NCBI GenBank assembly: GCA_016795145.1
Contig: JAEUII010000123.1
Location: forward strand, 1-64,000
DNA from: Planctomycetaceae bacterium
GTDB lineage: Bacteria > Planctomycetota > Planctomycetia > Planctomycetales > Planctomycetaceae
DNA: 64,000 bases
Direction of reading: 5' to 3'
The position numbers and the translations under genes were made by a program. The notes beneath the pieces were generated by a model. It was not told where the DNA came from. It did not search any database and was given only the letters and a program-made list of their open reading frames with translations. Shown piece by piece: positions 3,811 to 57,192 of this stretch; positions within the stretch are counted from its first letter, which is position 1, and every line of letters starts with the position of its first letter.

Positions 3811-5127
3811 TCAGCCGTTGGCAACTTCTCGTGCCCAGTAGAGCAGCCCCATCATCGTCTCTTCCTGCTCGGCGACTTCTCGCATCGGCCATGAGAACCG
3901 CTTCTGGAGCTTCTGTCGAAGGGAAGGGAATGCCTGCACGAGTCCACCGGAGATCGCAATTCGAGACCATGTGGGAGAATCACTGAGGCGTCGAGAACAT
4001 GTCAGGTAACTGTCGGCCATGAACTCGAACGCCGCCTGGAACAGGTTACCAACAGTCAGATTCTCCGTTGTGATGTGATCGATTCGCCCACTGTTTCCCA
4101 TCGCACTGGCGAAGAAGCTGAGGTCACAACTGAGACCACCTCCGCTGGCACGTTCCGTTGCTTCGCTGATCAGCTTCCATGAATTTGGCACTGCAATCCC
4201 TGCAGCTCGGGGAAGTTCCGTGAGTAGTGCTTCGATCACCGTCAGTGAACGGCCGGCAGGGATGTGAGTGATCGTGTTGAGATAATCTGTGCCGAACCAA
4301 CAGCGAGTCTGGCAATTCGACGGTTGGAACTGTGACGTGATCTGACTAACTTGTGAACCCGTCGAGACATTGATGGACAGTTCGTCTTTGGTCAGCTGAA
4401 TGCCTTTCAAAGCCGCCTGCTGGTCCCCCATCACGGTGAAGACATCCAGGGTTCGACCATCAATCGTGCACTGCCCTATTGGAATGCCATCATTCGCAAG
4501 CTCTGGCCATTGAAGCTGATCAAGCCCAAGCACAGCGAAGGCTTCCCGATGCCAGTCACTCGTGCGCAGATTCAGCATGCCGATCGTATGAGTTCGGTGC
4601 ATCGTTGGTGTAACACCACACAGGCTTCCGACGACGAAATCACCGATTGATACAGGAATGGTTCCGGCTGGCAACTGATTGTGGCGAGCCAGCCAGTGCA
4701 GCAGAACCGTTGCAGTGCCAGGCTTCAGCTCGCGGCCGAGATCAGCAAACAGATTTGGCGAAAGTCGTTGCTCAATTTCTTCCAGTAATGGTGTCGTGCT
4801 TCCATCAAGAGGCTGCAGAGATCGCTGGTCTCGCCATGACAGGTAGTTCGTGACTGGTCGCGAGGCCGCATCCGTCAGAATGACGCCTCCCATCTGACCG
4901 CAAAAAACGATCTGCCGAACATCGGAAGCATCGGCCAGGAGTTGCCGAATCACGGACACAGTCCGATTCAGAACCAGCGAGGAATCCACTTCATGGAATC
5001 CCGGTGGCAATCCCGGCAATGGATCAGGGAACGTTTCTTTCGAAATGCGTTCCACCTGGCCGCTCTGCAAATTCAGAATGGCCCCTTTGATGGACGAAGA
5101 GCCGATATCAATTCCAAGACAACGCAT
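3811..5127 (-). CDS. FGGY-family carbohydrate kinase
   Basis: ATP-dependent sugar kinase of 438 residues in the actin-like ATPase fold. The N-terminal phosphate loop reads GIDIGSSSIKGAIL (residues 5-18), followed by GQMGGVIL and the substrate-region motif NYLSWRDQRS. The C-terminal nucleotide domain has INVSTGSQVSQIT and the adenosine motif ISGGLVQAFPSLRQ. The length is a little short for xylulokinases (about 480-500). The motifs would also fit sedoheptulokinase-like members, so I do not assign a sugar. It starts with ATG 77 nt after the dehydrogenase gene and is followed by the palindromic repeat pair. Together they suggest catabolism of a sugar or sugar acid: oxidation, then phosphorylation. 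Confidence 0.88.
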   Translation of the reverse strand: MRCLGIDIGSSSIKGAILNLQSGQVERISKETFPDPLPGLPPGFHEVDSSLVLNRTVSVIRQLLADASDVRQIVFCGQMGGVILTDAASRPVTNYLSWRDQRSLQPLDGSTTPLLEEIEQRLSPNLFADLGRELKPGTATVLLHWLARHNQLPAGTIPVSIGDFVVGSLCGVTPTMHRTHTIGMLNLRTSDWHREAFAVLGLDQLQWPELANDGIPIGQCTIDGRTLDVFTVMGDQQAALKGIQLTKDELSINVSTGSQVSQITSQFQPSNCQTRCWFGTDYLNTITHIPAGRSLTVIEALLTELPRAAGIAVPNSWKLISEATERASGGGLSCDLSFFASAMGNSGRIDHITTENLTVGNLFQAAFEFMADSYLTCSRRLSDSPTWSRIAISGGLVQAFPSLRQKLQKRFSWPMREVAEQEETMMGLLYWAREVANG

Positions 5128-5203: not shown

Positions 5204-6250
5204 TTAGAGCGACGGAAGTTCGACGCCGCAGATTTCAGCTGCCTCACGGAGCTTTCCACGCACGTCTTCGGGAAGAGCGATTCCCTGCAACTCAGCCTGT
5301 CGTCTAAGCTGAAATTCTCTTTCACCAGGCAACAACACACCGGCACTTCCGTCTGCCGGAGGCGACTGATGGATCTCATCGATCAAACCTTGAATTCGAT
5401 CGTAGAACACAGGGAGTCCGCAGATCGCTTCGATGTCCACCACCATGATGCTGGCATTGTGCCACGAGGGACGTGACGGAGGATCAAAGATCCAGCTTCC
5501 GACCTGCCACGTCAGGTTGCCTCCGGGGATGACAGCGGACAAAACTTCGCACCACAGACCAAGCCCGTATCCTTTGTGTCCGGCCATGGGTGCGAGTGCC
5601 GCGGCTTGAGGATAGAGCGATCCGTCCGTCGTGGGATGACCATCGGGTCCGATCAGCCATGTCGGCGGAATCGTCTCGCCTCGTTGCAAGGCCGCGTACA
5701 CTTTTCCACCGGCGACAGCGGCGGTCGCGATGTCGAGCACAATCGGGTCTGCTGCCGTGGGAATTCCATACGCCAGCGGATTGCTTCCCAGCACGGCTTT
5801 GCGGGAGCCCGGAGCTGCCACACTGGGGATATCGTTTCCCGTAATCATTGCCAAACACCCAGAGCGAGTTGCCTGAAGAGCATACTGGCCAGCAGCTCCA
5901 ATATGCCCCGTGTTTCGGACGGACGCGAACGCAACACCGGTTTGCTTTGCCTTTCGAATGGCGAGGTCCGTTGCAAAGTGACAGCCAATCTGACCGAGCC
6001 CAGCAGCACCATCGACAACCGCCCAGGATGGACCTTCACGTTCAATGAGCGGGACCGAGTCCGCTCGGTACCCGCCGCCTTTTAGCTTCTTCAGGTAACC
6101 TGCGAGCAGCTTTGTTCCATGAGTAAACACACCCATCGTGTCGGTGGTCACAAGGCAATCCGCCGCGATGGCCGCATCGGAATCGCCAACTCCGCAGGCA
6201 TTCAGGGATCGAATGACGAAATTCCGCAAGTCGTGAACACTGACAGCCAC
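5204..6250 (-). CDS. Malate/L-lactate/ureidoglycolate dehydrogenase family oxidoreductase
   Basis: NAD(P)-dependent 2-hydroxyacid dehydrogenase of the Ldh_2 family (348 residues, family usual about 330-360), cytosolic. Seen: the N-terminal helix region, THGTKLL with conserved His44 (the family's SHG site), the RNTGHIGAAGQYA motif around His116, and the C-terminal GHKGYGLGL box that closes the active site. The start is GTG (6248-6250) with a purine-rich GGGGGAAG upstream. It is the first gene of the minus-strand cluster leading to the kinase and M14 hydrolase, so it likely feeds the same pathway. Exact substrate unknown. Confidence 0.88.
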   Translation of the reverse strand: MAVSVHDLRNFVIRSLNACGVGDSDAAIAADCLVTTDTMGVFTHGTKLLAGYLKKLKGGGYRADSVPLIEREGPSWAVVDGAAGLGQIGCHFATDLAIRKAKQTGVAFASVRNTGHIGAAGQYALQATRSGCLAMITGNDIPSVAAPGSRKAVLGSNPLAYGIPTAADPIVLDIATAAVAGGKVYAALQRGETIPPTWLIGPDGHPTTDGSLYPQAAALAPMAGHKGYGLGLWCEVLSAVIPGGNLTWQVGSWIFDPPSRPSWHNASIMVVDIEAICGLPVFYDRIQGLIDEIHQSPPADGSAGVLLPGEREFQLRRQAELQGIALPEDVRGKLREAAEICGVELPSL

Positions 6251-17357: not shown

Positions 17358-20300
17358 CTAATTCCTTCGACGACGTAGCAGCGCGCTGAGTGCCAGGATT
17401 GCTCCCAGCAGGCCAATTGCGGCAGACTTCGTTTCTTCCTTCGCTGGAGCAGGTTCAGCCACCGGTGCTGTGACAACAACTTGCTCAACTGATTCAGTCA
17501 CTTCAGCGTCAGGAGCATCCCACCATGCTTCGCTGTCCCATCCGCCAAGGACGGCATCGGTGTGCTGAGTTGAGACAGATTCAACCGGAATGACCGGCTG
17601 TTCGACGGACTCAACCGCGACTGGCACATCCAAGATCATTGCATCAACAGCACCCGCCATTCGTGAAGGCAGCATACTGATGGTGGTATCCGTGGAACCA
17701 TCTTCAAAGACCGGGGCCAGTGCCGTCAGCATCCAGGTGTCAGGAGATGCCGGTCGAACCGCCTCGTCCTTTGACGTGATCGTGAAGTCCACTGCGTTAC
17801 TCCAGAGACTTGCAGCCCCTGTCGATGCATTGAATGCACGAACCCAAACGCGGAACGTTCCTTTGCCCAGTGCGGTCGCCGGAGTGAAGTTCGTCGCTCC
17901 GATGTTGCTCTGGCGAACCAGAGTCACCGTTGGTGCCAGAACATTGACGATGTAGATCTCATACCCCGACGTGCCGTCAACCGCCTGCCACGTGATGCGT
18001 GGAGTCTGGTTGCTTGACGTTGGCACGGCATTCACGTTCGGTCGTCCGCCAACGAAGAACGCCAGAGCAAAGCTAAAGTCACCCTGAGTATCAGCCGAGC
18101 GTGCTCGGACGTACGCACGGTAGTTACCGATTGGCAACAAGTCGGTGTCTGGCAGCGTGTAAGACGGAGATGTCAGGCCGGCGACAAACCGGAAGTTTGT
18201 CGTGACCGTTGTCGACAGAACCTGATCAATTCTGAATTCGTAGCTCGTCGCTCCCGCTGGCAGTCCGTTCAATGTCGCGGCCATATTTGTCCACGCAAAC
18301 GATGGCGTCGTATCGAACGTTGATGACGCCGGACCTGTCAGCGTCGGGCCCGTCACAATCTGGAAGTCCAAAGGAGCGCTCCAGTTGCTGAGGTCACCGA
18401 ATGCGCTGCGAGCCTGTACCCAGTAACGGTACCGTCCGATTGGCAGGTCCGAAGGAATCGTGAAGTTCAGTGCATTGATGTTGGATACGTCATACGCCGT
18501 GGTTCCAACAGAGTTGCTGGAAACGAAGACGCGATACGACTGAGCACCCGGCACGCCGGCCCAGGTCAGAGTCGGCGTTGCATCGCCAATTCGGCCGGTA
18601 GGTCCGATCAAAGTTGGAGGCGTCGTGACACGGAACGTGCGAGCAAGACTCCAGTCTGAAACGGTTGCCGGATCGACTGAGGAATTGGTTCGTACCCAAA
18701 CCTGATAGGTTCCCAGCACGAGGTCGGTGGAAATCTGCCATGATGTTCCTGCAATGCCCGCCTGGCTCAGAACCTTATTGGAAACGCCGTTTTCGACCTT
18801 GTTCAACCAAACTTCGCTGACTGGGTTCGCACCGGCACCAAGTGGATTTGTCCACTCAACTGTTGGGCGAGCGAGGAAGGTTGTTGGCAGTGGAGCGGTG
18901 ACCGTCGGTCGTTCCGTGACGGTGAAGTCATAGGTCGAACTGATGGTCGACAACGCCGATCCACTCACGGATCCGGCCGCAGGAAGGTTCACCGCCCGGA
19001 TTGTGAACTGATATCGTCCAAGCGGCAGATCTGTCGGCTGTGTAAACGACGTTGATGTAATGTTCAGCTCGCTGACGACCTGCAGGTGGCCGCCAAAGTT
19101 CTGAGTCACAATCAGCTCATAACGATCCGCGGCACCCACTGCGTTCCAGCTGAACGTCGGTGTGGCATCCGGAATTCGGCCGACTGGAGCAACAGCGACT
19201 GGCACTGGTGCCACTCGGAAGATCTGATCCGGACTCCAGTTCGAATCTTCGTTGACGACGTTGAAGGCTCTTACGCGAACTCGGTAGTCCGCCAGAGTGA
19301 GATTACTTGACGGAGTCCAGTTGGTCAGGGTGACCCCGGTTACTCGAGCCACCTGAACGTTGTCGGTCAGGTTGAACAAGTCCACTTCGTAGGTCACCGC
19401 ACCGGCAACTGGAGTCCATGCAATCGTTGGACGAATCGACGTCGTTGGACCCGCTGGCGATGTCACAATCGGAGCGGTCTTCACTACGAAGGAGACAAAC
19501 GGACTCCAGTCGCCCAGCTGATCCGCGGCATCAGTCGCTCGAACGCGAACCTGATAGCGACCGATCGGCAGATCAGTCGGAGGAGTAAACTGGTTCGGAA
19601 TCGTCAGTCCGGTTGTACTGAACGTGGTCAGCAGGAATGTGTTTCCAGCTGTCAGAGACTCAATATTGACCGTGTACTTGGAAGAGCCTTCAATTGCATT
19701 CCACTGAATCAGCGGACGAGGAACAGTGACCGTTCCGGACGGTGCCGAAACGACCAGCGGAACAACTTCAAATGTCCAGGTCGCTGGTGCGGCGGTCGTT
19801 CCAAGTTTGTTCGAAGCCACGACCGTCGCGGTATAGATACCCGCTGGCAACGTCGTTGTGACTTCCTGGAAGCTGAAGGTTGTCGTTCCGCTGTAAACCA
19901 GCGTGTTCGACGCATTTCGCACTTCGAGGCTGTAAGAATAGTTTTCCTGATGCGACGTCCAGACGACCACCGGAGTCAGATCACTGGTCTGAGGAATGCG
20001 CCCGTCAGCCGGGTTGAAGTCCACCGGTCGGTTAATCACCGGAGTCACCGGCGCTGACAGAGTTCTGATCTTCACCGGATAGTCTTCGACTTCTCCATCA
20101 GCGGCTCGCCCTGTTGCGGCGAGTCCACCCACAGAGCTAATTCGGAACCGCATGAAGGTATCACCGGTCGGTGCATTCGCTGGAATGTCGAAGAACAGAC
20201 GGTTCGAACCTGCGACTACGGCCATGCCACCCGCTGGTGTCAGTCGTTCGCCCGCATCGAACACACCGTTCTGATCCAGATCCAGCCATGCATCCACAAA

Positions 20301-23300
20301 GCCGGCCTTTGAGGCCATCATGTCCACAAACGCCGGCAGCGGCTGGCTGCTGGTTGTTTCGAAACGAGTTGGGAAGCTGACGCCGTCCTCATCAGCACCG
20401 TCGCCGGAAGCATCGGAACTTGGGATGCCCGTCGTTTCCTTATCAACAGTGGAACCAAGGAACAAACCGCCGGCGATTGTGTGAGCAGCACCGGTCGAAG
20501 TCTTCAGCGTACCGAAGGTATCCGGAGCGTCACCATAATCAACGATCAGCGTGTTGAGCGTGGTCGTTGTTGTCCCCACGTTGTTCGCCGCGCCGCTTGA
20601 GTCAGTCACCTGCAGTCGAATCGTTCGCGTCTGAGGAGCGGTGATTCCGAGCGACTGCAGCCATGCCCAGGTCACGGTAGAAACGGCATTGGCACCTGTC
20701 GACGTTTCAAATGAACCGTTGTTATCAAGGTCCCACGCATAAGTCAGCGTCTGACCAAAGAATGCATCCACGTCGAAGCTTGCAGATGCATCCAGCGTCA
20801 GGTCATACGATTCGTCAACCGTATGAGGCGATGCAACAGCCACAGGAGCATCGTTTACCTGGTTGACAGTGATCTGAATCTGCAGAACTGGAGTGATGTT
20901 GTCATTCAATCCACCCGTTGCACCATTGTCCGCAAGTGTCATATCCACTGTGATCACACCGGCAGTGTCCTGATGCGACTTGAACGTCAGGTTGCCGTTT
21001 GCGTCAATGGTCAGCGTGTCCATCAACACGTTACCGGAGACAAGCTGCACGTTAGACAGCGAGAATGTCAGTGTCTGCGTGCCAAGTTCGTCCAGTGCCG
21101 TCGCGATAGCGGCAGCAAACGTGTTGATGAGGTCAATGTTCTGAGTACCAGCATCTTCCGCCACCGAAATCGGCAGAACCGGATTCAGCGTATACACAGG
21201 CTCGTCATTGATCGGATTCACCGTGACGGTGAAGTTACGAGTCACACTGGTCAGGCCGAGACTGTCAGTCAGTACGACACTGATCGTCGCACTGCCGTTC
21301 ACGTTCGGAGCAACCGTGTAAGTCAGATCGCCCGTCGTCGTGTCGATGGCCGGCGCGGTGCTGAAGAACGTCGATGTGGTCCATGAACCAGTTACTGACG
21401 TGACAGTCAGTGTTGCCGAAATCGTCTGTGGAGGCGTTTCATTGGCTGGTCCGGCAGCCTGGCCCGTCATAAATCCGGCCACTGTCTGAGCACCGGCATC
21501 TTCATCAATTGCTGCCGGGTCCGCGAGCGGATTAAACACAGGCCTGTCGTTGACCGGCGTCACATTGATCGGAATGACATCCATGTCTTCCTGAGGTGCC
21601 GCTGGTGGTGTTGGCGGTCCGGTGAAGCCGCCAAGGTCGTTGGTCGTAATCGTGATCTGAGCCGAACCGAAGTAATCCGGTGTCGGGATGAACGACATCC
21701 CAGCCAGTGCTGCGTTGATGAAGTCAACGGTGCCGGTAAATGTCATCGCCGCGTCTGCCGTGCCGTCACCCGTTGTGAACGTGAGTCCGGTCGTTCGCGA
21801 AAGTGACATCACTCCGTTTGTTGACGCCAGCGTGACTCGCAGGATGTTGGTCCCAAGCCAGACGTCTGCATCAGAAACGGAAATCAGATTCCCGTTTGCC
21901 TGGCTGAAGACCAGCGTCGTGTCTTCCGGTGTTGACTGAGCCAGAGGCACTGAGTTCACTGGCGGGTCGTTCACGCCATCGGTCAACAACAGCGTGAACT
22001 GCGTCGTCCCATCGACACGATTCGGTGCCAGGTAGTTTCCTGCCAGGTCACGAATGCCGTCGACGCCGTCGGTTGTCGCGTCCGTGTTGTCCACAGTGAT
22101 GCGGTACTTGCGCTCATCCGGGAAGGCCGTTGTTGAGCGGAAGATCACTTCATTCGTCGTTGAGTTGTAGACAAACACATAGTCGACACCATTCTGCAGC
22201 AGTCCCTCTGTGATCACCGTACCGTTTGGAAGGTCCGGCAGGTCAGTTGACTGCTTCACACCATCGTCCATGTACAACTTGAACTGAGAGCCGTTCAGGA
22301 GTACTCGAGCATCGTCAACGCCGATTCCGATGTCGGTCAGCGAGATAATCAGTTCGCGAACTGTAATCGGAGAATTGAGCCATACAGCGTCGAGAGTTGA
22401 ATCGAGGTCGCTCGTCGACTGGTCAAGCGGTGTCGAGAAGTAGGCCGTTGGGCGGAAGAAGTCGACTCGGTCGATCGCGCCACGGTCCTTAAACACATTC
22501 GCGCCCTGAGCAGCCGGTGTGGAAACGGCAGGGTCGTCCCCACGGAGCTGGCCGTAAGCGTCGACGGTCGGCGTCGTGATCGGAGAAACACCAATTCCGA
22601 GCGGATCACGAACTGTGATGAAACCAGTTCGATCCGACAGAGTGTCGATGGAGCTGTCAATCGCCTGTGACAGCGGAGCCGGGTAGTAGTTGCGTCGAGC
22701 CTGGTCCACAAAGAGAGGATCAGAGTTCGTCAGAACGATCGGGAAGGTTCCCAGACCGATTGCACCCGTCGATGCGTTCGTTCCGTTATTGCGGTACAGC
22801 GTTCCACCGACAACCGTTCCCAACGCCTGTGAGCTGGCATCGACAGAGACGCCAGTCACCAGGTCAGCAACGATGTTGTTCAACAGCGTTGGACTTGCGT
22901 TCTGATCAACCTGAATACCAACACCCACACGATTCGTCGGGTTGCCGACGATCGTGTTGTTGATGATTCGGCCAACCGGAACAGGGCCAACCGTCGTGGT
23001 GGCTCCCGGTGGTACTTCACCACTAAACAGAATGCCGCCCTGACCGGACTGCACGATGACATTGTTGGAAATCACAATGCCCGGCAGCCAGTTGTTGGTA
23101 TTTGGTTCACGCAGATTTCGTGGCGGGCCAGCGTGAGTCAGCGCACCAGCACCTGCTGGATTCGGGCTGCCCGTTCGAGTACCCGCATCAGACAGAATAC
23201 CCCAGTTCAGCGAGTCTGAGATGAAGTTTGATCGGATCAGAAGCTGTCCCTGATCACGGTACTGATTGCTGTCGCCATAACCTTCGTGAGAAATCACGGT

Positions 23301-26300
23301 GGTTGGGTCGGTGACTGGACGAAGGACGCCCATCTGGTCCGTTGTTGCGCTTTGGACAAACTTGGATGCAACAGCACGTCCGCTGCTGTAGCTGACGTCG
23401 ACTGTCGCCCCGAGGTTCCATACTGGTTCAGCGAAGAAGTCGATGTCCAGACCGAAGATCAGCACATCATTCTTTTCGAAACCAGGACCGCGCTGTGTCG
23501 CATCGACGATCTGAGAAAAGTCGATCGTCATCACGTCAAATTCAGAGCTGAACGAGAACTTAGGAATCCGCGGATTGTTGTTGTCCAGCGACGTAAATGT
23601 CGGTGAGTCGAAATCAGACGCAGCATTGACAGTCGGACCGGTACCGTTGCCTCCAAGAAGCGAAATCGGATCGAACTTCTGACCGGCAGGAAGCTGGACT
23701 CGAATGCTGTGAATCTGCTCCGGGTAACCCGTATTCGGGTCAATGTATGGAGTAGTATTTCGGAATGTGAACAACGTTGTTGAGCCGATCGTGTTTCCGA
23801 GCCCAGCCATTGTGCCGTAGAAACCATCCGGCATGCCATCAGCACCCGGAGTCTGCAGACCGTCGTTCAGCGTCACCAGAGCCGTGCCATACAGATTGAT
23901 CACGCTGCTTGTGCTGCCAAACGCAGAATCTTCAGCTCCATCTGACAGGGAAGCCCGAATCTTCAGGATGCCCTGCACAGCGGTGGAGTTGATCGCGTCG
24001 AGGATTCGGCCCGCGATTGTGGCGGACGATTCACCCGTGCGATAGCTGTCCATTTCGTAGCGACCATCCAGCGTTGCGGACTTCGCCGGATTGAATGGGA
24101 TTGCAAAGTGTCCCTGAGCAACGCCATTCGACAGCAGTTCATCTTCGTATTCGAACGTGACGGAATTTACGCCGTCACTGATGGTAAATGTCTGCCCGTC
24201 ACGAAGCGATGAAGCGCTCGGAACCCGGATCGACTGTGCGTCCGTCAGGCGGTCATTGGTGTCACGAGAATCAAACTGAGGATTCGGGACTGAAGACGGA
24301 GTACTCGCATAGTCTGAAGCGCGTCGAATTTCGACATCGTACGCACCTTCCAGAATATCCTGGTATGGGTTCGTGTTGTTGCGGTTGACGATCTGTGGAT
24401 TGTCGATGAATGTCGAGTTATTCGGTGCATTGGTGACCATCTCACCACGTTCAGCAAACCCGATGATAATGTCGTCGATGTACATCCCTTCGAACGCGTT
24501 GTTCATACCGCGCTGAGCGGTCGTGGCTGTATCGAAGTACCCGCCGAACCCATCGCCTGGCAATCCGGTTGTGTGTCCCATCGGACCTGCGTTTGTGACG
24601 TAGTGACCAATGATTCGCACCAGGTCGCCGCTCGACTTGATGTTGAACGGATTCACGACCAGAGGATCCGCCGGGCCGTTGGCATTAACGGCATGCCCTT
24701 CAACCGACAGGTGCAGTGTGTATCGCTGACCTGGCAGCGCGTCGTTGGCGAATGGCGGGACACCGATCTGAACGTAGTATTCTCCAGGTGCGAGATTGGT
24801 ATCCAGGTAGGACGTAATGTGGTTACTGCCAATATCCAGCGTCGTTCCCACAAGGTTCTCAATGACGGTCGCTCCGTTCGTATCCACAATTCGAATCATG
24901 GAATTGAACGTCGTGTTCGTGCCATCAAGGTCAACGATGACTCTCCGAGTCAATGCACCAGCAGGTACATCAAATCGGTAGAAGTCGGTGAAAATACCGG
25001 ACGAAGAGCCAATGATCGAGATGTGCGGCAATGGCGCAGCGTTGTTCTCCTGAACCGTATTGTTTGCGACATCGGTCCACGACAGCGCCTCCAGGTCAGT
25101 GGCGATGAGAGGATCCGCGGCATTGTTTCCTTCGACTTCGTAGTACGCCCCTGCAGGAAGCAGGTGACCGGCAAGCGCGTTTTTCATGGCGGTTGCCACT
25201 TCATTTCGACTCATGCCGGAATGGATAACAACCGGAGTTGTTCCAGGTGTCACACCTGGAGCACCGTCAACAAACAGGCCGGCACCGCCACTCTGAGTCA
25301 GTGTTGTTCCAATCGTTGTGATTGGAGCATTGTCCGGCTGACGGGCAATGTTGACGCGGTTGCCGTCGGTATGAGGCTTGATCTCCTTCAGTGGAGATCC
25401 ATTCGGAGTCGCAGCGATCGCGGTTCGAAGTGCCAGGTCAATGGCTCGAGCAATCTCATTGGCACTCATTGTCCGTGCAATACGGATCGCATTGTTGCCG
25501 GCGAGCACACCGTCATAGCTTCCATTGACCTGCTGCAGATCAAACTCGAACTTCAGTGTTTCCGTGTCGACGTCCAGCGTGAACGTTTCACCTTCCACAA
25601 GACCACTGAATGAAGGAGCAACCAGCGTGTAACCCATATCCAGTTCGAACTGGTTCACACCTTCCAGAATGTAGCTCTGACCATCTCGCAGCGTGCGACC
25701 TTCACGAGCATACATTTCTTCGCCAACGGTCGAAATGTCGCCGACATTCACCGCTCCGCTCGTGTCAAATTCGAATCGAAGTCGAAGATCTGAGCGGCCT
25801 GCGAAATTGCTGAGGTCGACTCGAGCCTGACGCCACTGCGGAGTCGCCGCTTCGTCATATAGCTCCACAACATCCGGGAACAGCTGGCCGTTCGGGAACG
25901 AAGTCACTCCGTTTGGCCCCAGATCCTGCTCGTCATCACCCGTCAGCGGGCCGCGGTAGGAATCGTTTGTGGCCGCCAGTACCCAGTTTGTACCGTCACC
26001 CACATAGACTCGCATCGCATCCGACTGCGAACGAACGCCTGGCAGATAGTCATTGCTGTCCGTCTGCAGAAGGTAATTGAAGTACAGAACCGGTTTGTCA
26101 GCCGAATTGTAACCTTCAAGGCTGAACGGATTGCTCATGTACGTGCCATGAGCACCGCCCGGGAAGTTGTAGTTATTGAGCGTACCAAGGTTGCCGAGGT
26201 CGTTCTTGTTGCCGGCTGTTGGCCCGCCCGCGAGATTTCCGAAATACAGGCTGGCACCGCCTGGGGCGGCATTTCGAGTACCATCGACAGCTGTCGTCAG

Positions 26301-29300
26301 CCCGTGGCCCGCCTCAAGACCACGATTTCCAGTTTGTTGCCACAGATTGTATTGCAGCGTACCGAACGTGATGCCGGCCGCTGGCACTCCGGTCGCCAGT
26401 ACGGACTGGCCGTTTACGAAGAACGGAACCGGATCTCCCCAAACGGCGTTCGGGTCGATCACATTACCGCCGGTCGCAATCGCGTAGATATTTCCCTGAT
26501 CATCAGATGCAAACAGCGTCGTCGCGTAGGCACCACCTTCAACACTGTCCGGACCAAGAGTCAGACCAGTCAGGTTGACCGGGTTGTTATTTGCGTCTCT
26601 GATCGTTTTCTGGTTCGCAATCGTGAACGTTGCAAGATCCAGCTCAACCAGCAAGCCAGTGCTCGTCACGCCATACAGCGACGTCCCGGCCATCGCCACG
26701 CCCTGAACCGTTCCAGTCACAGACGTCGGGAATGCGCCAACTTCGACAACGTCGGTACCGGAAGGATTGAAGAGCGACGGAACGTTGTTGTTCGTCGCGC
26801 GAGCGTTCGCAGCACGGTTTGGTCCCTGACCGATCGCCGCTCCGGTGCGAGTATTGAACTGGTAGATCAGATTGGCTCGATATCGTCCGTCGCCGCGTGT
26901 ACCAACCAGTACGCCACCGGTTGTTGTCGGAGCGAAGTAAGTGAATGCAGTGACATCCATTCCGGCATTCGACGTCGCCTCGGAGAAGGTTCCGGTTGGG
27001 TCAGAGTCGTGGTAGGTCGTAATGCCTTCGTCACCGATATTGGTCCGAGCCCCGTTGCCGGTGTTGATCTGGAAATACGTGCTATCACCGTTGTCGACGC
27101 CCGTAACGAAACTCCATCCGTACAGTTCACCGTCCGGGCGCATCATGATTTCGTCATGCACGACTCCGGTATTCCCGACAATGTTGACAGCCGTGCCGGT
27201 ATACGGATTCACGATGTAAACAAACTGCCCGTCGCTGACGAACAGAGGCACGTCACCCAAATGATACTGGACAGTGTTCTGTCCCTGTTCATCGTCGCCG
27301 AACTGGTAAACCGGAGCTGTTGAAGTCCCCTGACCGCCAAAATGCTCGTCGAAAATTCGACGAACAAACGGAACGGGCTCCAGGCGAATCTGAGTACTGA
27401 TCGGGTTCGCCAGCATCGTCTGTCCCAGCGCGGCTGGTACCTGACCGTGAGGTGCAACAACCAGGTAGTAGTTACCTTCCGGCAACTCGAATGGCCCGAT
27501 GTAAGGATCCAGCGAACCAGCGCTGCCACGAGACAGGTCGTCCATGTCCGCACCTTCCAGCGGACCACTGCGGTCTTCTGAAACGTTGGAATCACTGGCC
27601 GTCAGAACCAGCTGATTCGTCTCGGCATTGAAGACGTATGCATCGAGATTCGCGCGAGACATTCCGTCTGCGTAATCCACGTCAAAGATGACCGAAGCAA
27701 ACCGATTTGGATTCGTAAAGCCAGGGATCTGTTGAATGTCATCGTAGGTGACATTGAACCGGTAGAAGTCCACGTCGGATGGTGCAGAAATGCGTCCGGC
27801 AATCGCAACAGAGGCTCTGTCTGTATTCAGCAGATTGCCGACGTCCTGGTTACCGCTCGCCAGAGCCGTATCATTGGGGAACGTGCTCTCAGCATATTCG
27901 CCGGCTAGCTGGGAGTGTACCGGCTGTCCGTAGACTTCGATGCCATTCGTTGCGAATCGAATGTCGGAGTAGCGGACCGTTGTGCCTGGAACTTCATCCG
28001 TTTCCTGCATGCGAATCTGAAGCTGGTAACTGCCGGCCGTCAGACCGCTGAACACCTTACTTGAATCAGAAAGGTCAGCGCGGTTTGCAGCAGTATTCAA
28101 TGAATCAATATTGCTGGAACGCACTCGTACCTGGTATGTCCCCGTCGTCCCAACGTTGCCCGGCAGGATGATCCGGAAGCCCGCATCCTTTGGATTGGTT
28201 GTGTACATGTCATCGCTGTTGTACAGCGACTTATTCAGGTTGTTGGCCTTCACCAGCGAACTCTGGCGATAGATCAGGCTGGAATTCGTGCTCTCATCCA
28301 GCGAGTTATCAGACAGGGCCAGAATCGTACCGGTCGAGCTGATCAGTTCGACCACTGTGTCCAGCGAATACGAAGTGCGGTCGATGTCAATCCAGACTTC
28401 ACTTCCAGCGGTACCAGTAAAGCTGTAGACGTCGACGTCGTTCGGTGCATTGATGGCACCATGCACTTCGAATCCAAGTCGCAGATTGTCGTCGCCGCTG
28501 TTCTGCGTGGTCGTCGTACCGTCTGAATTCTGAACGATAAAGTTCTGCTTGCCGAGTGCTCCCAGGAACTCCGCCAGTCGCGCTGTCGCGTTCGTTCCTG
28601 GTGCCGTTGCAGAAATCGTCTCCCGTTCGTTGTAGACCTCGACGTTTCGATCATGTGCATACTGCGAGATCAACAGGCTTCGCCAGGCACCGGCTGTTCC
28701 TGTGCTGGGGCCATTTGCATTCGTATCCTTCAGCGGCAGGCCATCAAGTCCGAAGCCTGAACCCACTGAGTCATCTGCGAATGAAGTCAGAATGACCGGG
28801 AAGTAAGGCTGTCCCACAACCTGAAGAACGCCACCGATGCGATCATCGATGTCCAGAGGCTTGCCACCAGCCGTAAATCCGGCATTGGCGCCTGACAGTT
28901 TCACGACAAGGCTGGCATCAGGAGCACTATTGAGCCGCAATCCGCCATAGGTATGGAAGTTCGGAATGGTGATTTCGTTCTGCACCACATGAACAATGTC
29001 GGTGTCGTCCCAAACGGACTGAGTCGTCAGTGTCTCTCCTCGGACAACGATGCCGTTCACCGCATTTCGCCCGAGCAGGTTTCGAACGATCAGTGGTCCC
29101 TGATTGCTTTCATAACCGGTAAACGCACCGATCAGACCAGTCGAACGTCCGTAGTCGCCCTGATAGGTCGCCACCATCGCGTTTGCGTTGATGGTCAGAA
29201 CGGGGCCGGAGTTATCCCGGAAGACGTTGTTGACCAGAACCGGCTGAGCCCCGCGAGCGAAGATTGTTCCGGCGGCATTTGCAGTTCGACCATATCGCGA

Positions 29301-32300
29301 AGCTGGTGCGGTGCCGCCACTGCCGTCACGGTTCTCTTCGAACACACTGTTGGCGACTCGCAGGTCTGCCTGATGAGCCTCAATGACGTTGAAGCCGGCA
29401 AAGTTGCCATCGGTCGGAATCACATTTCCACCGAAGGTCACCAGAGCATGATCGATGCTCGCCGACGCTCCCGGAGCAAGGTACAGCCCGCCCCACAGTC
29501 CGTTGCCTGTTGTACGGCTTGGGCTGACTTCGCTGCTGCCGCGTGAGTCGTCGTTGTTGGTATCAAAGGTACCGCCCGCACCGTATCGGTCATCCAGGCG
29601 CGAAGTGACAATGATCTCACGTCCACCGACCGCTTCTGCAATCAGCTGTGCCCCCATACCCACTTCAATGCGTGATCCTTCCATCTTCAGGATCATGTCC
29701 GGATCGATTACCAGACTTGCATCAAGCCGAGCACGGTTTCGTCCTGTCAGAGTGAGGTCCAGGATCCCTGTCAGCGTCGTTCCGTTATCCACAAACGTCG
29801 TGGACGAACCGTTCAGATTCGCGATCAGAGTGTAATTGCCGCCGCCGGTGTCATCAGAACGGTACAGTCGTCGTGATGTGTATGGCGCTACTGCTGGCGG
29901 CAGATTGGCAAGTGAAACGGATCCCGTGGCTGACAGCGTTACAGAACGAGTTGGCAATGATGCCGGGCTCTGGTTACCGGAAGCGTCAACGTAGACAATC
30001 CGGTAATTGTAAGTTCCCGCTGGCAGTGTTCCGCTGGCCGTTGATGCAGCCAGTGTGACGAGGACGACAGGAGGTGCGTTCACTTCAAGGAACGGTCCGC
30101 CTGGTGTTCCAGCAAGGGTCAGGTTTTCGGAGATGATGTGAACGATGTCACGGTCATCAAATCGACCGGCGACCGTCATCTGCTTCGTCGGGGAACCTGC
30201 GGCTGTCTGAATTCGAATGAAGAGACCGTTGTTCGAATTGTTCACAAGCCGGTTGCCGTAGATGTCCGGCCCGACGCGGCTGTAATCTGGAGTGAACGGA
30301 ACAGTCTGGAAAGCAGGCGCACTGAATGTCGTCTCTTCAAAGCTGTCCGGATCCGCAGACATCGCGGAGTCTTCACTGAGTGTGATCAGGTTGTTGTAGA
30401 CGCCTGGTCGCGACTCAATCATCGTGATCGGATTCACGATTTGCTGAACAGAATCCACATCAAGCTTGCCGCCACCGTAGCTGAGTGAGGCAAACGCAAC
30501 GTAGTCCATGAAGATCCCGGATCGCTCATAGTTGATGCGACCTTCGTCGTTATCGACATCGCGACGGAAGACGAGGCCACCCCAGTTGCCAGGGCTTGGC
30601 GTCGTTGGTGTTGGTGTTGTATCACGTCCAATCGACTCATCCCGCCACGATGTCATCGTGACGTCCTGAACCGGCGTTCCAAGGACCTGCAGTGTTGCAC
30701 CGCCGCGGTCAACAGTGACCGATGAGCTTCCTGCGCCGATGAATGAATCCTGGAACTTCAGAACTGCACCGGCGTCAATCATGACGACGACATCCTTCGG
30801 GATGTCCATTGACGACCCGTCAGCCAGATCAAAGCCGGAGTCATCCAGTCCGATTTGATAGGAGATGTTGTCCGCCTTCGTCGCAATGTCACCATCGGTG
30901 CCACCGTTTCCAACGATTCGAACGATGTCGCCTGGCTGAGCTGCCGCAAGGGCCGCGCTGATTTGCGTGTAGAGATTCGGCAGGTTGCCGCCCGGTGTTG
31001 CAAGTTTGTCGACAACACGAACCCGGCTTGTGTCAACGGCACGGAACCAGAAGTTGTAAACACCGCCTTCGACGCCGTCATGGTCACCATCCAGCCGCAG
31101 GGATGGCTGATTCAAGGCAGAGTCACGAATCGTCGTGTCAGTGTTTGGACGGAATGTCATACGCAGGTCGTACTTGCCCTGCGTCGTCCCGTTCATTCCA
31201 TTGTCCTGAATGGTCGGATCATACTGATCGTTGCCACTCGCGCTGACACCGATGAAGTAGGTTCCGGCTTCCAGCTCCAGCGTCAGCATGGAATCTTCGC
31301 TGAAGTAATCGTCGTTCTGAGAAATCAGAGTTCGCTTGCCGGAGGAATCTTCTTTGTACAAACGCACAACAGTGTCCAGCAGGCTGGAATCGTTCATGCG
31401 TTCAGCAACCGTCTCTGCGGTGAACTGTCCCTTCTTGGGAAGCACAAAACGATAGAGGTCAATGTCCCGACTTTCCGGACGATACAACGCCTGTCCGTGG
31501 ATGATGTCTGCATCACCTGGGAAGTCTGGCTCCGCGGTTGTGGTCTGGACCGTCGGCCCTTCAAACCCGGCCATGACTGTCAGCGCTGGCAGATCGTAGG
31601 CATCTCCCAGTCCCAGCAGGTGTCCGATCTCGTGCATCGCCGTAGAGAACCACGATCCGGCAAATGAGTCGTCCCAGGTTTCCGCATTGTCCATAATGGC
31701 AAGGCTGAGCGGACGGCTGGCATACCCAATCACACCACCAGCACCCGTGATAATGTTCGGATCGATGGCACGCAAGTCGCCCGTAACAATCGTGAACCCC
31801 TGGTTTGCGGTTTCAACAAACTGCACACCCATGTTCCTGGAATACAGCTCGAACGCTTCGCGAGCACGCTGCTTCTGGTTCTCCGTGATCAGGTTAAGCA
31901 GCGCTGTTCCCTGAGGAGTAAAGCCGTAGTTGCGCTGGAAGTTGTAGTAGTAGGTCGTGATCTGTGGATTCTGGTCGAGCGGATCCTGCAGATGGTCTTC
32001 GCCGGGAACGTCGATGTCGCGATGTCCCGGTTCGTCACCGTTGCCTGGGAAGTCAAATGGATAGGCTCGCGACAGAATCTGACCGCTGATCACCTGACTC
32101 TGGCTGGAAAGCGTTCCAAGATTGACGGAGTTCCCAAAGCTCGAACCTGGATCAACAAACGAAAAATTGATGTTCGAAGACGTCAGAGTCAGATTCGTAT
32201 TCTGATTACCGAAGATCGTTGTTTTCACGAGCTTGCTGACCTGAGTATTCAGGTTCATTGCCCAGGCAAGCTGCGCTGGTGTCGTGCCACCTGTGGAATC

Positions 32301-33356
32301 AAGAACGACATTGATGGCACGGTTCGTCACCGTAATCGCTGGCATTCCATTGGTATTCAATGCCGACTTCGTGAACGAAAGCGTGATCGGATTACCGTCG
32401 ATCGAAACGATCGGCTCAATCAAAACCGAAGCCAGTGCATTGCCAGTTGTGCCGAAACTGCTGGTGAAGACCTCAGAGTAAGTCGTTGTCGTTGGTGCCA
32501 GTGGAACGGTTTCGTCGGTTCCGATGCGCAGACGATATGTCCCGGCCCCGGAAAGCTGATCAATTGGCGAAGCAAATGTCAGTGTCGCTGTGTTGGCCGA
32601 CGCGCTGTAGACAACCGACGTTGGCAGATGGACAACGTCATCCGTGTTCTCAACCGTGCCCTTCGTCGCAAGCAGGCGATAGAAATTGGCATTCTGAGCA
32701 GTCGTGGCGTCCAGAGTATCTTCGTTGAAGTACACAACGATCTGATCGCGTTGCTGCGTCAGAGTGCCATTGGAATTGCGGGTGACCGGCTGAGGAACTA
32801 CAGCACGCACCTGAGCCCCAAGATTCAACCGGAAGTAGAAGTACCCGTCCGGATCAGACGTACCACTCTTGAACTTCTCCCCCGCAGTATTCTGCAGCGG
32901 ATTTGTGCCACTGCCCTTGATCGTAATTCGATAGTAGTCATCCGGCAGGTTCTCCGCAAAACGGAGCACCACATCTTCGCTCGTCGCGCCAAGACCGACA
33001 TAGCCCAGTGTGACTGGAACTTCGTTGCCGTCGGCAAACGTCCCGTCGCGACCAGACCGAGTCACGATGATCGGCGAATTGTTGAACAGTCGATTCCCCG
33101 AAGAATCAATCTGCTGCCCAGGATTGAACTGCAGCGTCAGCTCTTTTGGAGCCACGTTACGAGTGTCACCCGACGTCAGGAATTCGCCAACATTGGGGCG
33201 AACCGCGACCAGTGACGGAGCCGCAAGCAGAGCACGAGTTTCGAGCGAATCTTCCAGACAGGCCGACGTCTTCTTGACCAATCCCCTTCGCTTCACCGAA
33301 CTTCGATTGTGAGTGAAACGGTTACGGACAGCAGTCAACCATGTCGAAATCAGCAT
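17358..33356 (-). CDS. Giant modular surface protein with metzincin protease site, 5,332 aa
   Basis: A single unbroken frame of 16 kb. The N-terminus is basic and carries LETRALLAA (38-46), the LExRxLL(S/A)A form I associate with planctomycete extracellular proteins. Order: SbsA/Big-like Ig (about 50-300); metalloprotease (about 465-600) with HEIGHLLGLGD, His575, Glu576, His579, Asp585 and a likely Met-turn VMAG near 595; PPC domain (about 610-705); three beta-helix-like units (about 855-930, 1208-1260, 1480-1540) with further PPC-like domains near 1630, 1860 and 2780; beta-helix near 3470; cadherin-like repeats (3796-4160); PKD (about 4170); GEVED (about 4273-4400); eight FN3-like repeats (4435-5190). 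It ends in AAIGLLGAILALSALLRRRRN, a membrane helix plus Arg tail for anchoring or sorting. ATG with AGGG eight bases upstream. Likely cell-surface adhesin/protease; target unknown. Confidence 0.93.
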   Translation of the reverse strand: MLISTWLTAVRNRFTHNRSSVKRRGLVKKTSACLEDSLETRALLAAPSLVAVRPNVGEFLTSGDTRNVAPKELTLQFNPGQQIDSSGNRLFNNSPIIVTRSGRDGTFADGNEVPVTLGYVGLGATSEDVVLRFAENLPDDYYRITIKGSGTNPLQNTAGEKFKSGTSDPDGYFYFRLNLGAQVRAVVPQPVTRNSNGTLTQQRDQIVVYFNEDTLDATTAQNANFYRLLATKGTVENTDDVVHLPTSVVYSASANTATLTFASPIDQLSGAGTYRLRIGTDETVPLAPTTTTYSEVFTSSFGTTGNALASVLIEPIVSIDGNPITLSFTKSALNTNGMPAITVTNRAINVVLDSTGGTTPAQLAWAMNLNTQVSKLVKTTIFGNQNTNLTLTSSNINFSFVDPGSSFGNSVNLGTLSSQSQVISGQILSRAYPFDFPGNGDEPGHRDIDVPGEDHLQDPLDQNPQITTYYYNFQRNYGFTPQGTALLNLITENQKQRAREAFELYSRNMGVQFVETANQGFTIVTGDLRAIDPNIITGAGGVIGYASRPLSLAIMDNAETWDDSFAGSWFSTAMHEIGHLLGLGDAYDLPALTVMAGFEGPTVQTTTAEPDFPGDADIIHGQALYRPESRDIDLYRFVLPKKGQFTAETVAERMNDSSLLDTVVRLYKEDSSGKRTLISQNDDYFSEDSMLTLELEAGTYFIGVSASGNDQYDPTIQDNGMNGTTQGKYDLRMTFRPNTDTTIRDSALNQPSLRLDGDHDGVEGGVYNFWFRAVDTSRVRVVDKLATPGGNLPNLYTQISAALAAAQPGDIVRIVGNGGTDGDIATKADNISYQIGLDDSGFDLADGSSMDIPKDVVVMIDAGAVLKFQDSFIGAGSSSVTVDRGGATLQVLGTPVQDVTMTSWRDESIGRDTTPTPTTPSPGNWGGLVFRRDVDNDEGRINYERSGIFMDYVAFASLSYGGGKLDVDSVQQIVNPITMIESRPGVYNNLITLSEDSAMSADPDSFEETTFSAPAFQTVPFTPDYSRVGPDIYGNRLVNNSNNGLFIRIQTAAGSPTKQMTVAGRFDDRDIVHIISENLTLAGTPGGPFLEVNAPPVVLVTLAASTASGTLPAGTYNYRIVYVDASGNQSPASLPTRSVTLSATGSVSLANLPPAVAPYTSRRLYRSDDTGGGNYTLIANLNGSSTTFVDNGTTLTGILDLTLTGRNRARLDASLVIDPDMILKMEGSRIEVGMGAQLIAEAVGGREIIVTSRLDDRYGAGGTFDTNNDDSRGSSEVSPSRTTGNGLWGGLYLAPGASASIDHALVTFGGNVIPTDGNFAGFNVIEAHQADLRVANSVFEENRDGSGGTAPASRYGRTANAAGTIFARGAQPVLVNNVFRDNSGPVLTINANAMVATYQGDYGRSTGLIGAFTGYESNQGPLIVRNLLGRNAVNGIVVRGETLTTQSVWDDTDIVHVVQNEITIPNFHTYGGLRLNSAPDASLVVKLSGANAGFTAGGKPLDIDDRIGGVLQVVGQPYFPVILTSFADDSVGSGFGLDGLPLKDTNANGPSTGTAGAWRSLLISQYAHDRNVEVYNERETISATAPGTNATARLAEFLGALGKQNFIVQNSDGTTTTQNSGDDNLRLGFEVHGAINAPNDVDVYSFTGTAGSEVWIDIDRTSYSLDTVVELISSTGTILALSDNSLDESTNSSLIYRQSSLVKANNLNKSLYNSDDMYTTNPKDAGFRIILPGNVGTTGTYQVRVRSSNIDSLNTAANRADLSDSSKVFSGLTAGSYQLQIRMQETDEVPGTTVRYSDIRFATNGIEVYGQPVHSQLAGEYAESTFPNDTALASGNQDVGNLLNTDRASVAIAGRISAPSDVDFYRFNVTYDDIQQIPGFTNPNRFASVIFDVDYADGMSRANLDAYVFNAETNQLVLTASDSNVSEDRSGPLEGADMDDLSRGSAGSLDPYIGPFELPEGNYYLVVAPHGQVPAALGQTMLANPISTQIRLEPVPFVRRIFDEHFGGQGTSTAPVYQFGDDEQGQNTVQYHLGDVPLFVSDGQFVYIVNPYTGTAVNIVGNTGVVHDEIMMRPDGELYGWSFVTGVDNGDSTYFQINTGNGARTNIGDEGITTYHDSDPTGTFSEATSNAGMDVTAFTYFAPTTTGGVLVGTRGDGRYRANLIYQFNTRTGAAIGQGPNRAANARATNNNVPSLFNPSGTDVVEVGAFPTSVTGTVQGVAMAGTSLYGVTSTGLLVELDLATFTIANQKTIRDANNNPVNLTGLTLGPDSVEGGAYATTLFASDDQGNIYAIATGGNVIDPNAVWGDPVPFFVNGQSVLATGVPAAGITFGTLQYNLWQQTGNRGLEAGHGLTTAVDGTRNAAPGGASLYFGNLAGGPTAGNKNDLGNLGTLNNYNFPGGAHGTYMSNPFSLEGYNSADKPVLYFNYLLQTDSNDYLPGVRSQSDAMRVYVGDGTNWVLAATNDSYRGPLTGDDEQDLGPNGVTSFPNGQLFPDVVELYDEAATPQWRQARVDLSNFAGRSDLRLRFEFDTSGAVNVGDISTVGEEMYAREGRTLRDGQSYILEGVNQFELDMGYTLVAPSFSGLVEGETFTLDVDTETLKFEFDLQQVNGSYDGVLAGNNAIRIARTMSANEIARAIDLALRTAIAATPNGSPLKEIKPHTDGNRVNIARQPDNAPITTIGTTLTQSGGAGLFVDGAPGVTPGTTPVVIHSGMSRNEVATAMKNALAGHLLPAGAYYEVEGNNAADPLIATDLEALSWTDVANNTVQENNAAPLPHISIIGSSSGIFTDFYRFDVPAGALTRRVIVDLDGTNTTFNSMIRIVDTNGATVIENLVGTTLDIGSNHITSYLDTNLAPGEYYVQIGVPPFANDALPGQRYTLHLSVEGHAVNANGPADPLVVNPFNIKSSGDLVRIIGHYVTNAGPMGHTTGLPGDGFGGYFDTATTAQRGMNNAFEGMYIDDIIIGFAERGEMVTNAPNNSTFIDNPQIVNRNNTNPYQDILEGAYDVEIRRASDYASTPSSVPNPQFDSRDTNDRLTDAQSIRVPSASSLRDGQTFTISDGVNSVTFEYEDELLSNGVAQGHFAIPFNPAKSATLDGRYEMDSYRTGESSATIAGRILDAINSTAVQGILKIRASLSDGAEDSAFGSTSSVINLYGTALVTLNDGLQTPGADGMPDGFYGTMAGLGNTIGSTTLFTFRNTTPYIDPNTGYPEQIHSIRVQLPAGQKFDPISLLGGNGTGPTVNAASDFDSPTFTSLDNNNPRIPKFSFSSEFDVMTIDFSQIVDATQRGPGFEKNDVLIFGLDIDFFAEPVWNLGATVDVSYSSGRAVASKFVQSATTDQMGVLRPVTDPTTVISHEGYGDSNQYRDQGQLLIRSNFISDSLNWGILSDAGTRTGSPNPAGAGALTHAGPPRNLREPNTNNWLPGIVISNNVIVQSGQGGILFSGEVPPGATTTVGPVPVGRIINNTIVGNPTNRVGVGIQVDQNASPTLLNNIVADLVTGVSVDASSQALGTVVGGTLYRNNGTNASTGAIGLGTFPIVLTNSDPLFVDQARRNYYPAPLSQAIDSSIDTLSDRTGFITVRDPLGIGVSPITTPTVDAYGQLRGDDPAVSTPAAQGANVFKDRGAIDRVDFFRPTAYFSTPLDQSTSDLDSTLDAVWLNSPITVRELIISLTDIGIGVDDARVLLNGSQFKLYMDDGVKQSTDLPDLPNGTVITEGLLQNGVDYVFVYNSTTNEVIFRSTTAFPDERKYRITVDNTDATTDGVDGIRDLAGNYLAPNRVDGTTQFTLLLTDGVNDPPVNSVPLAQSTPEDTTLVFSQANGNLISVSDADVWLGTNILRVTLASTNGVMSLSRTTGLTFTTGDGTADAAMTFTGTVDFINAALAGMSFIPTPDYFGSAQITITTNDLGGFTGPPTPPAAPQEDMDVIPINVTPVNDRPVFNPLADPAAIDEDAGAQTVAGFMTGQAAGPANETPPQTISATLTVTSVTGSWTTSTFFSTAPAIDTTTGDLTYTVAPNVNGSATISVVLTDSLGLTSVTRNFTVTVNPINDEPVYTLNPVLPISVAEDAGTQNIDLINTFAAAIATALDELGTQTLTFSLSNVQLVSGNVLMDTLTIDANGNLTFKSHQDTAGVITVDMTLADNGATGGLNDNITPVLQIQITVNQVNDAPVAVASPHTVDESYDLTLDASASFDVDAFFGQTLTYAWDLDNNGSFETSTGANAVSTVTWAWLQSLGITAPQTRTIRLQVTDSSGAANNVGTTTTTLNTLIVDYGDAPDTFGTLKTSTGAAHTIAGGLFLGSTVDKETTGIPSSDASGDGADEDGVSFPTRFETTSSQPLPAFVDMMASKAGFVDAWLDLDQNGVFDAGERLTPAGGMAVVAGSNRLFFDIPANAPTGDTFMRFRISSVGGLAATGRAADGEVEDYPVKIRTLSAPVTPVINRPVDFNPADGRIPQTSDLTPVVVWTSHQENYSYSLEVRNASNTLVYSGTTTFSFQEVTTTLPAGIYTATVVASNKLGTTAAPATWTFEVVPLVVSAPSGTVTVPRPLIQWNAIEGSSKYTVNIESLTAGNTFLLTTFSTTGLTIPNQFTPPTDLPIGRYQVRVRATDAADQLGDWSPFVSFVVKTAPIVTSPAGPTTSIRPTIAWTPVAGAVTYEVDLFNLTDNVQVARVTGVTLTNWTPSSNLTLADYRVRVRAFNVVNEDSNWSPDQIFRVAPVPVAVAPVGRIPDATPTFSWNAVGAADRYELIVTQNFGGHLQVVSELNITSTSFTQPTDLPLGRYQFTIRAVNLPAAGSVSGSALSTISSTYDFTVTERPTVTAPLPTTFLARPTVEWTNPLGAGANPVSEVWLNKVENGVSNKVLSQAGIAGTSWQISTDLVLGTYQVWVRTNSSVDPATVSDWSLARTFRVTTPPTLIGPTGRIGDATPTLTWAGVPGAQSYRVFVSSNSVGTTAYDVSNINALNFTIPSDLPIGRYRYWVQARSAFGDLSNWSAPLDFQIVTGPTLTGPASSTFDTTPSFAWTNMAATLNGLPAGATSYEFRIDQVLSTTVTTNFRFVAGLTSPSYTLPDTDLLPIGNYRAYVRARSADTQGDFSFALAFFVGGRPNVNAVPTSSNQTPRITWQAVDGTSGYEIYIVNVLAPTVTLVRQSNIGATNFTPATALGKGTFRVWVRAFNASTGAASLWSNAVDFTITSKDEAVRPASPDTWMLTALAPVFEDGSTDTTISMLPSRMAGAVDAMILDVPVAVESVEQPVIPVESVSTQHTDAVLGGWDSEAWWDAPDAEVTESVEQVVVTAPVAEPAPAKEETKSAAIGLLGAILALSALLRRRRN

Positions 33357-47882: not shown

Positions 47883-48167
47883 TCACCAACGCGGCGAAAT
47901 GAGCAATTTGCTGGAAAAGTCAGCATCGGCTGACTGTGACCCGTTCGTCGACAACAGTCTAGGCAAATGTGCCAGCGTTCCGCCACTCTGTACGGTTCGC
48001 GAGAATTCCGGTTCACCCACTTTCAGTGCGGTGACGATTGCGAGTGGCATCAGCACTGCCTTACCATCCTGATCGCTCGTGAATGGTACCGTTTTTGGCT
48101 CGAAAATGAGCTTTAAGATCCAGGTGAATCTTGCCCTCTTTGACTTCACTTTCGACTGAGACACCAC
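47883..48167 (-). CDS. Possible small hypothetical protein, 94 aa
   Basis: A frame of 94 codons whose TGA is 3 nt before the His-rich gene start. The protein is basic at first (MVSQSKVKSKRARFTWILKL), then KTVPFTSDQDGKAVLMPLAI and a polar C-terminus; an internal ATG at codon 40 would give 55 residues. No family recognised, no signal. Its first 37 bases overlap the start of the divergent ABC ATPase gene, which makes it doubtful. If real it is co-transcribed with the His-rich protein. Confidence 0.35.
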   Translation of the reverse strand: MVSQSKVKSKRARFTWILKLIFEPKTVPFTSDQDGKAVLMPLAIVTALKVGEPEFSRTVQSGGTLAHLPRLLSTNGSQSADADFSSKLLISPRW

Positions 48168-49117: not shown

Positions 49118-49136
49118 CTGCGAATCGCCTTTCTGT

Positions 49137-53317: not shown

Positions 53318-53397
53318 GACAAACATCGGCGAGGACAAGCTTCCTCGTCACACAAACGAAACACGGTTCCTTTCACTTAACGCCAGATAACAGAACT

Positions 53398-54405: not shown

Positions 54406-54410
54406 CGGTT

Positions 54411-57190: not shown

Positions 57191-57192
57191 AG

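Follow-up and report, generated by a model that had tools for sequence, protein, structure and literature searches.

Planctomycetes characteristically carry giant genes, whose products are for the most part interpreted as surface or adhesion proteins (PMC5177795, PMC11573180); a tested function for any of these genes was not met in the literature excerpts consulted. The 64,000-nucleotide window analyzed here, the whole stretch from the start of a contig of a Planctomycetaceae bacterium, contains one such gene, in which an earlier note had picked out a metzincin-type motif in front of a series of adhesive modules. Matrixins use histidine as the third zinc ligand, and the window protein has an aspartate, Asp585, in its place. 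The question raised by this locus is whether the head is a working protease.

A giant gene in a single open frame

The minus strand of positions 17358-33356 is one frame with an ATG start that encodes 5,332 aa and has a single terminal stop; the plus strand of the interval is stop-rich. The intact 16-kb frame described in the earlier note was confirmed by closed orthologues in G003 (5,354 aa, same MLIS start) and G010 (5,346 aa), both collinear with the window protein over its entire length. These orthologues, together with homologous giant frames in single-contig genomes, rule out the frameshift that the note had named as its refutation. They also make a chimeric or over-extended frame exceedingly improbable, despite the draft state of the source genome (473 contigs), and an assembly artefact was therefore rejected. 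Residues 401-600 are 87%, 84% and 88% identical to the same-genus orthologues in G003, G010 and G006 (the last cut by a contig end), and the bin holding the head is the best or nearly the best conserved of the whole protein in these comparisons. Past residue 4000 the 200-residue bins are less alike, at 39-67% identity.

A formyltransferase with an ACT domain, which we read as PurU, and MTHFR lie downstream on the same strand, and the upstream neighbor is a divergent DUF1501 gene. A conserved operon was considered and rejected because only PurU recurs beside the gene (four loci, L034, L035, L040 and L041, of which two are truncated by the stretch); a DUF1501 match was seen in two loci besides the window's own. 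The giant gene is the sole copy of this head found in its genome. Two other, much smaller matrixin-type proteins were seen there (L032, G000:C454:4427-4798, and L033, G000:C315:320-481; open frames of 553 and 346 aa), each with HExxHxxGxxH and a nearby Met. Elsewhere in the window, a same-strand run at 48131-62455 encodes an ABC transporter ATPase, NHL repeats, a VWA protein, a MoxR ATPase, a BatA-like protein and an ABC-2 permease, an arrangement that we take to resemble MoxR-VWA-beta-propeller systems.

Table 1. Features of the giant gene, in window positions
Feature	Residues	Position	Strand	Basis or remark
Giant ORF, 5,332 aa, probably secreted or surface protein		17358..33356	-	Frame and collinear orthologues
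N-terminal 46 residues: MLIS[AT]WLTAVRNR start, basic stretch, LE.LE.R.LLAAP motif	N-terminal 46	33219..33356	-	Conserved in orthologues
SWM repeat-like	201-267	32556..32756	-	Pfam, below cut-off
Head with predicted matrixin fold	453-630 (range aligned to MMPs in the model)	31467..32000	-	Pfam PF00413, model, VIA
Putative zinc-binding motif HEIGHLLGLGD	575-585	31602..31634	-	Sole HExxH in the protein
Asp585 codon GAT	585	31602..31604	-	CAT or CAC (His) in L061, L058 and L060
Met595, candidate Met-turn methionine, 10 residues past the motif	595	31572..31574	-	Position, alignment
PPC-like/DVUA0089-family domain behind the head	630-732	31161..31469	-	NCBIfam NF038127, 31 bits, cut-off 29
PPC-like	1640-1695	28272..28439	-	Pfam, below cut-off
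PPC-like	2790-2864	24765..24989	-	Pfam, below cut-off
Tandem-95-like repeat	4001-4055	21192..21356	-	Below cut-off
Bacterial cadherin-like domain, best of three stretches	4160-4216	20709..20879	-	Pfam PF17803, 34.9, cut-off 25.1
GEVED domain	4354-4428	20073..20297	-	Pfam PF20009, 50.2, cut-off 24.4
fn3 and Big_13 in the C-terminal Ig/FN3-like region	4644-4800	18957..19427	-	PF00041, 38.4 over 25; PF19077, 40 over 27
C-terminal tail: hydrophobic stretch then RRRRN, sorting/anchor-like	5303-5332	17361..17450	-	MYXO-CTERM, 18.5 bits

With a 16-kb gene and Cadherin_4, GEVED, fn3 and Big_13 units, the protein fits the giant, putatively surface or adhesion proteins of planctomycetes in having a gene >15 kb and extracellular repeat domains (Table 1). 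The domain list of the earlier note held in part: its cadherin-like, GEVED and FN3-like units score above cut-off, but beta-helix and PKD appear only below it. The PPC assignment divided in the same way, with Pfam PPC below cut-off in three places (17.9 against 25.9 at residues 630-732) and the NCBIfam DVUA0089/FDP_fam profile passing its cut-off immediately after the head. In the C-terminal region Ig_J, Y_Y_Y and MalQ_N exceed their Pfam or NCBIfam cut-offs as well, and we take them to be cross-matches of the Ig/FN3-like repeats. The LE.LE.R.LLAAP-type motif is presumably typical of planctomycete N-termini. The N-terminal 46 residues gave no match in the NCBIfam search, and the proposal that they are a tag common to many proteins of the genome was rejected, the matches besides the protein itself being weak (E 0.03-0.7). 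The C-terminal tail scores just under the sorting-domain cut-offs (20 bits for MYXO-CTERM), and a similar tail is present in orthologues whose C-terminus was read (G003, G010, G001, G004 and G015). A role as an adhesin is plausible from these domain types.

The matrixin-related head and its aspartate

The Peptidase_M10 profile (PF00413) matched residues 489-588 with 36.0 bits, above its curated cut-off of 24, and a comparison of the family profile with solved structures ranked the catalytic domains of MMP-12 and MMP-1 first (E 3e-5). The head was modeled over residues 402-738 from an alignment of the window with 68 of the 71 named-contig rows, giving a pLDDT of 86 and a pTM of 0.82. Foldseek with this model returned MMP-12 as the top match (E 2.4e-7), and VIA aligned it with MMP-9 and MMP-13 at Z 14.3 (2.6 A; 141 and 143 residues) and with karilysin at Z 13.9. 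The profile matches and the predicted fold identify the head (residues ~453-630) as a matrixin-related domain, and a chance motif was rejected on the same evidence. The head is under strong constraint, as seen in the comparison of the window with L058 (pN 0.058, pS 0.709).

The HExxHxxGxxD motif at residues 575-585 stands where the earlier note had placed it, as HEIGHLLGLGD, and profile, fold and orthologues all bear out its picture of a metzincin head carried by a long stalk of modules. The ligand set typical of matrixins did not hold: Asp585 departs from the three-histidine site HExxHxxGxxH, and the domain is therefore classed as a matrixin-related head and not as a proven M10 peptidase. Met595 fits the Met-turn methionine by position; this column is Met in 51 of the 75 HEHH heads among the matches listed and is thus not universal in relatives. 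The head shares with M10 matrixins (MMPs, karilysin) the PF00413 match, the predicted fold, HExxHxxGxx and a Met near the site. It differs from them in its third ligand, in its setting within a 5,332-residue protein and in having no cysteine-switch propeptide, the single Cys of the protein being residue 33, distant from the head. The M12B profile Reprolysin_3 (PF13582) scored 13.8 bits against a cut-off of 22.4.

Asp is a known ligand in the HEXXHXXGXXD sites of Asp-zincins and snapalysin, and snapalysins have a conserved Met ~10 residues beyond the third ligand, according to the relevant part of one report (PMC3890501). The window head shares the motif and a Met at similar spacing but differs from snapalysin in its M7 profile scores, which are far below cut-off (PF02031, 13.7 against 25; NF033628, 18.1 against 300), and in that the orthologues of the window protein carry His. 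The Asp therefore looks convergent with snapalysin.

Heads are written here by their four site residues, HEHD being the form with Asp as the third ligand. In a same-genus alignment of 14 rows Asp is present in the window alone and His in 13 of the 13 others. In a tree computed without the motif columns, the window groups with three other rows in a supported set, and all three have His. Judged from these rows and from the codon (GAT against CAT or CAC), Asp585 is a recent, derived change. HEHD was found in 2 of the 60 own-family heads read. The second comes from another genus, in the single-contig genome G453, so the Asp is not merely a slip of a draft assembly; that genome has an HEHH copy as well, and G453 thus does not demonstrate that HEHD is sufficient. 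Because Asp is also present, though rare, in another genus, the window head probably has a working, snapalysin-like Asp-variant site and is likely to be catalytically active. Decay of the site, of which the change from His to Asp could be the first step, appears rather doubtful.

A PG..DEPGHRD segment precedes the head at residues 437-455 (window 31992-32048). Its Gly, Gly and Arg are invariant and its His near-invariant across intact and lost heads, and it is possibly a latency or structural segment. An aspartate-switch role was considered for its EPGHRD part, and one literature search on this idea gave no paper with all three terms sought.

Intact and lost heads across the class

A whole-genome profile search located the head in 53 of 134 own-family genomes (at least 90% complete). 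There are 61 places, one cut before the site, and the 60 sites read comprise 56 HEHH, 2 HEHD, 1 HEFQ and 1 EGQS. The HEFQ head is in G443; L067 has the same motif string and is perhaps from the same genome. Six of the eight multi-copy genomes have two HEHH copies, and the other two pair HEHH with HEHD (G453) or with EGQS (G518). A head of the same family was also seen inside an 18,985-aa open frame (G464:C21:75877-76749).

When 392 genomes drawn from the phylum were compared with the first profile, 24 matched; the match included the head in 20 of these and was confined to the PPC part in 4, all of genus g53. Heads among the matches listed gave 105 distinct rows (75 HEHH, 1 HEHD and 29 lost), taken from 147 rows of at least 230 profile positions after removal of near-copies. 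This set came mostly from a pattern scan that had HEIGH as one of its three patterns and from which the best 80 of 378 confirmed stretches were taken; 29/105 was therefore rejected as a family rate and replaced by whole-genome profile searches, which are free of this bias. An even draw of 297 class genomes, each at least 90% complete, was searched at E 1e-30, and 89 matched. Outside the own family, 53 genomes held 96 places (one two-piece match merged), and 44 of the 95 sites read were HEHH and 51 were not. Exactly one HEHH head with one to three lost copies was found in 18 of the 21 multi-copy genomes of this group, the three without HEHH being G537, G551 and G565, and 26 of the 32 single-copy genomes were HEHH. 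Retention of one intact head per genome was rejected as a general rule, as 9 of these 53 genomes, including 6 of the 32 single-copy ones, had none at E 1e-30.

Copies were also read in f5, another family of the class with 22 matching single-contig genomes. Sixteen were chosen and searched at E 1e-15, of which G551, G594 and G639 were already in the class sample. Fifteen carry three or four copies, with exactly one HEHH in 14 of the 15, these genomes not being independent trials because the copies are orthologous between them. The exceptions at this threshold were G551 (none of three HEHH) and G527 (none of one); a search of the 13 kb beside the head pair of G551, the site of the intact copy in G594 and G638, gave no further head. 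Among the other six genomes, one of four copies is HEHH in G638 and one of three in G665, and G389, G428, G546 and G547 each have a single HEHH copy. In G638, three of the giants (HEHH, TLSS and AGLQ) follow one another directly on the same strand and the fourth (GMDD) is elsewhere; in G623, G633, G641 and G668 a distance of ~1 Mb or more separates the intact copy from two lost copies that are close together. The lost heads include Pirellulaceae records (L104, L113), from which f5 may be Pirellulaceae.

Pooling gave 203 distinct heads from 247 rows: 130 HEHH, 2 HEHD (counted as intact) and 71 lost, where 71/203 mixes scan and profile-search sources and is not a rate. Loss of metal ligands in homologues, which the earlier note would have taken as a refutation, is thus found in the wider family and hardly in the own family (HEHH or HEHD at 58 of the 60 sites read). 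A tree of the 203 heads (quick search, LG+G4) requires at least 19 state changes, at least 9 of them forced by starred (supported) branches, and for a smaller set, analyzed under a mixture model, the minimum is 13 changes, of which at least 6 are forced. These counts give no direction, and the changes are read as losses since regain of four residues is implausible.

Site residues changed together in most lost rows: all four in 55 of the 71, three in 7, two in 7 and one in 2, the residue being retained in 7-14% of lost rows at the four columns. The rest of the head is kept. Twenty-six other columns, at least 85% conserved in intact rows, average 87% in lost and 93% in intact rows; some columns near the site drift along with it (587 from 80 to 6%, 569 from 83 to 39%, 596 from 83 to 42%). 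Nine pairs of lost heads gave pN/pS values of 0.066-0.259 and five pairs of intact heads 0.045-0.240, the head region being approximated by the first 62% of columns and pS being high in most pairs; the lost pair L110/L130 gave pN 0.080 and pS 0.598. Lost heads are therefore under purifying selection similar to that on intact ones. The model of the lost head L110, from an alignment that included intact heads, had a pLDDT of 89 and VIA scores of Z 13.8 to MMP-3 and 13.7 to karilysin. The conserved remainder, the selection and the predicted common fold bear the marks of pseudoproteases kept for a role other than cutting.

Several single records were also noted. L116 and L124 match the head profile a second time within one giant frame, ~1,350 residues C-terminal to the first match, with the site HEIGHALGF and ligands HEHS, and are possibly two-headed proteins. 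L267 (G535:C501:11090-11896) has one in-frame TAG inside the head match and an HEHH site. Two records titled Candidatus Kuenenia stuttgartiensis (L062, L136) carry the head; the title of L062 is probably a mislabeled bin, since the tree places it within the window's supported set.

Proposed function and its alternatives

On balance, we favor an exported, probably anchored giant whose head binds zinc through the Asp variant and cuts near the surface. The C-terminal tail would anchor the protein, and the PPC-like, cadherin-like, GEVED and Ig/FN3-like modules that follow the head would form a stalk that positions it. Zinc would be bound by His575, His579 and Asp585, the Asp replacing the usual His as in snapalysin, with Glu576 as the general base, and the substrates would be proteins at or near the cell surface.

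It is unlikely that the window head is already a pseudoprotease, in which the change from His to Asp marks early decay and the head contributes binding or structure to an adhesin. Site loss is frequent in the wider family, as the 71 lost heads of the pool and the 55 with all four residues changed attest, and it comes close to the window in L067, an HEFQ head within the supported ten-row set that holds the window, and likewise in G443. Against this reading, Glu576, both histidines of HExxH and Met595 are intact in the window; its end branch (0.072) resembles the branches leading to L061 (0.064) and L060 (0.07); Asp is a known alternative zinc ligand; and the own family is predominantly HEHH (56 of 60), with the window's head the sole copy found in its genome. 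That last point also bears on a processing role, in which the head clips its own giant or a neighboring surface protein as it is exported or matures, leaving the stalk as the product, a matrix or fiber component. The position of the head near the N-terminus of a huge repeat protein would suit such a role, as would the one intact-head giant alongside two or three lost-head giants in f5, but the window genome shows no sibling carrying this head, and we consider this role quite improbable. Surface proteolysis by an Asp-variant head remains the preferred reading.

A giant planctomycete "Matrixin" is already in print, Pla52n_17500 of Stieleria varia (6,858 aa, gene >15 kb), whose domains are read there as cadherin-like adhesion, calcium-binding and glycosyl hydrolase; its likeness to the window protein is one of annotation (PMC7717043). 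The giants 17480 and 17490 are the preceding locus tags, and the three perhaps form the same cluster as the back-to-back giants described above. What appears new is what the homologues indicate, a protease/pseudoprotease split across the family. No paper on an intact/lost head split in planctomycetes was found in the open-access literature, a weak negative. The closest parallel in working, not in membership, is with animal ADAMs, which have a metzincin head on an adhesive ectodomain and include, besides active heads, pseudoprotease ones, QSLAQNLGIQWE among them, that function in protein binding (PMC11266112). ADAMs differ in belonging to family M12, in being much smaller and in having transmembrane and cytosolic parts.

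The single HEHH head in 14 of 15 multi-copy f5 single-contig genomes leads us to propose, tentatively, that giant surface proteins of planctomycetes work as a set in the manner of ADAMs. One working matrixin head would process its siblings or shared partners, and dead-head siblings would be kept by selection as docking, decoy or regulatory modules; the pseudoprotease state would have arisen repeatedly out of active heads, and the window would represent a single-copy Asp form. The head, at ~180 residues, is conserved, foldable and assayable, which makes one class of giants a testable enzyme. The pattern of one intact head with several lost ones would give bacteria an equivalent of the protease/pseudoprotease split of ADAMs, with clear knock-out predictions.
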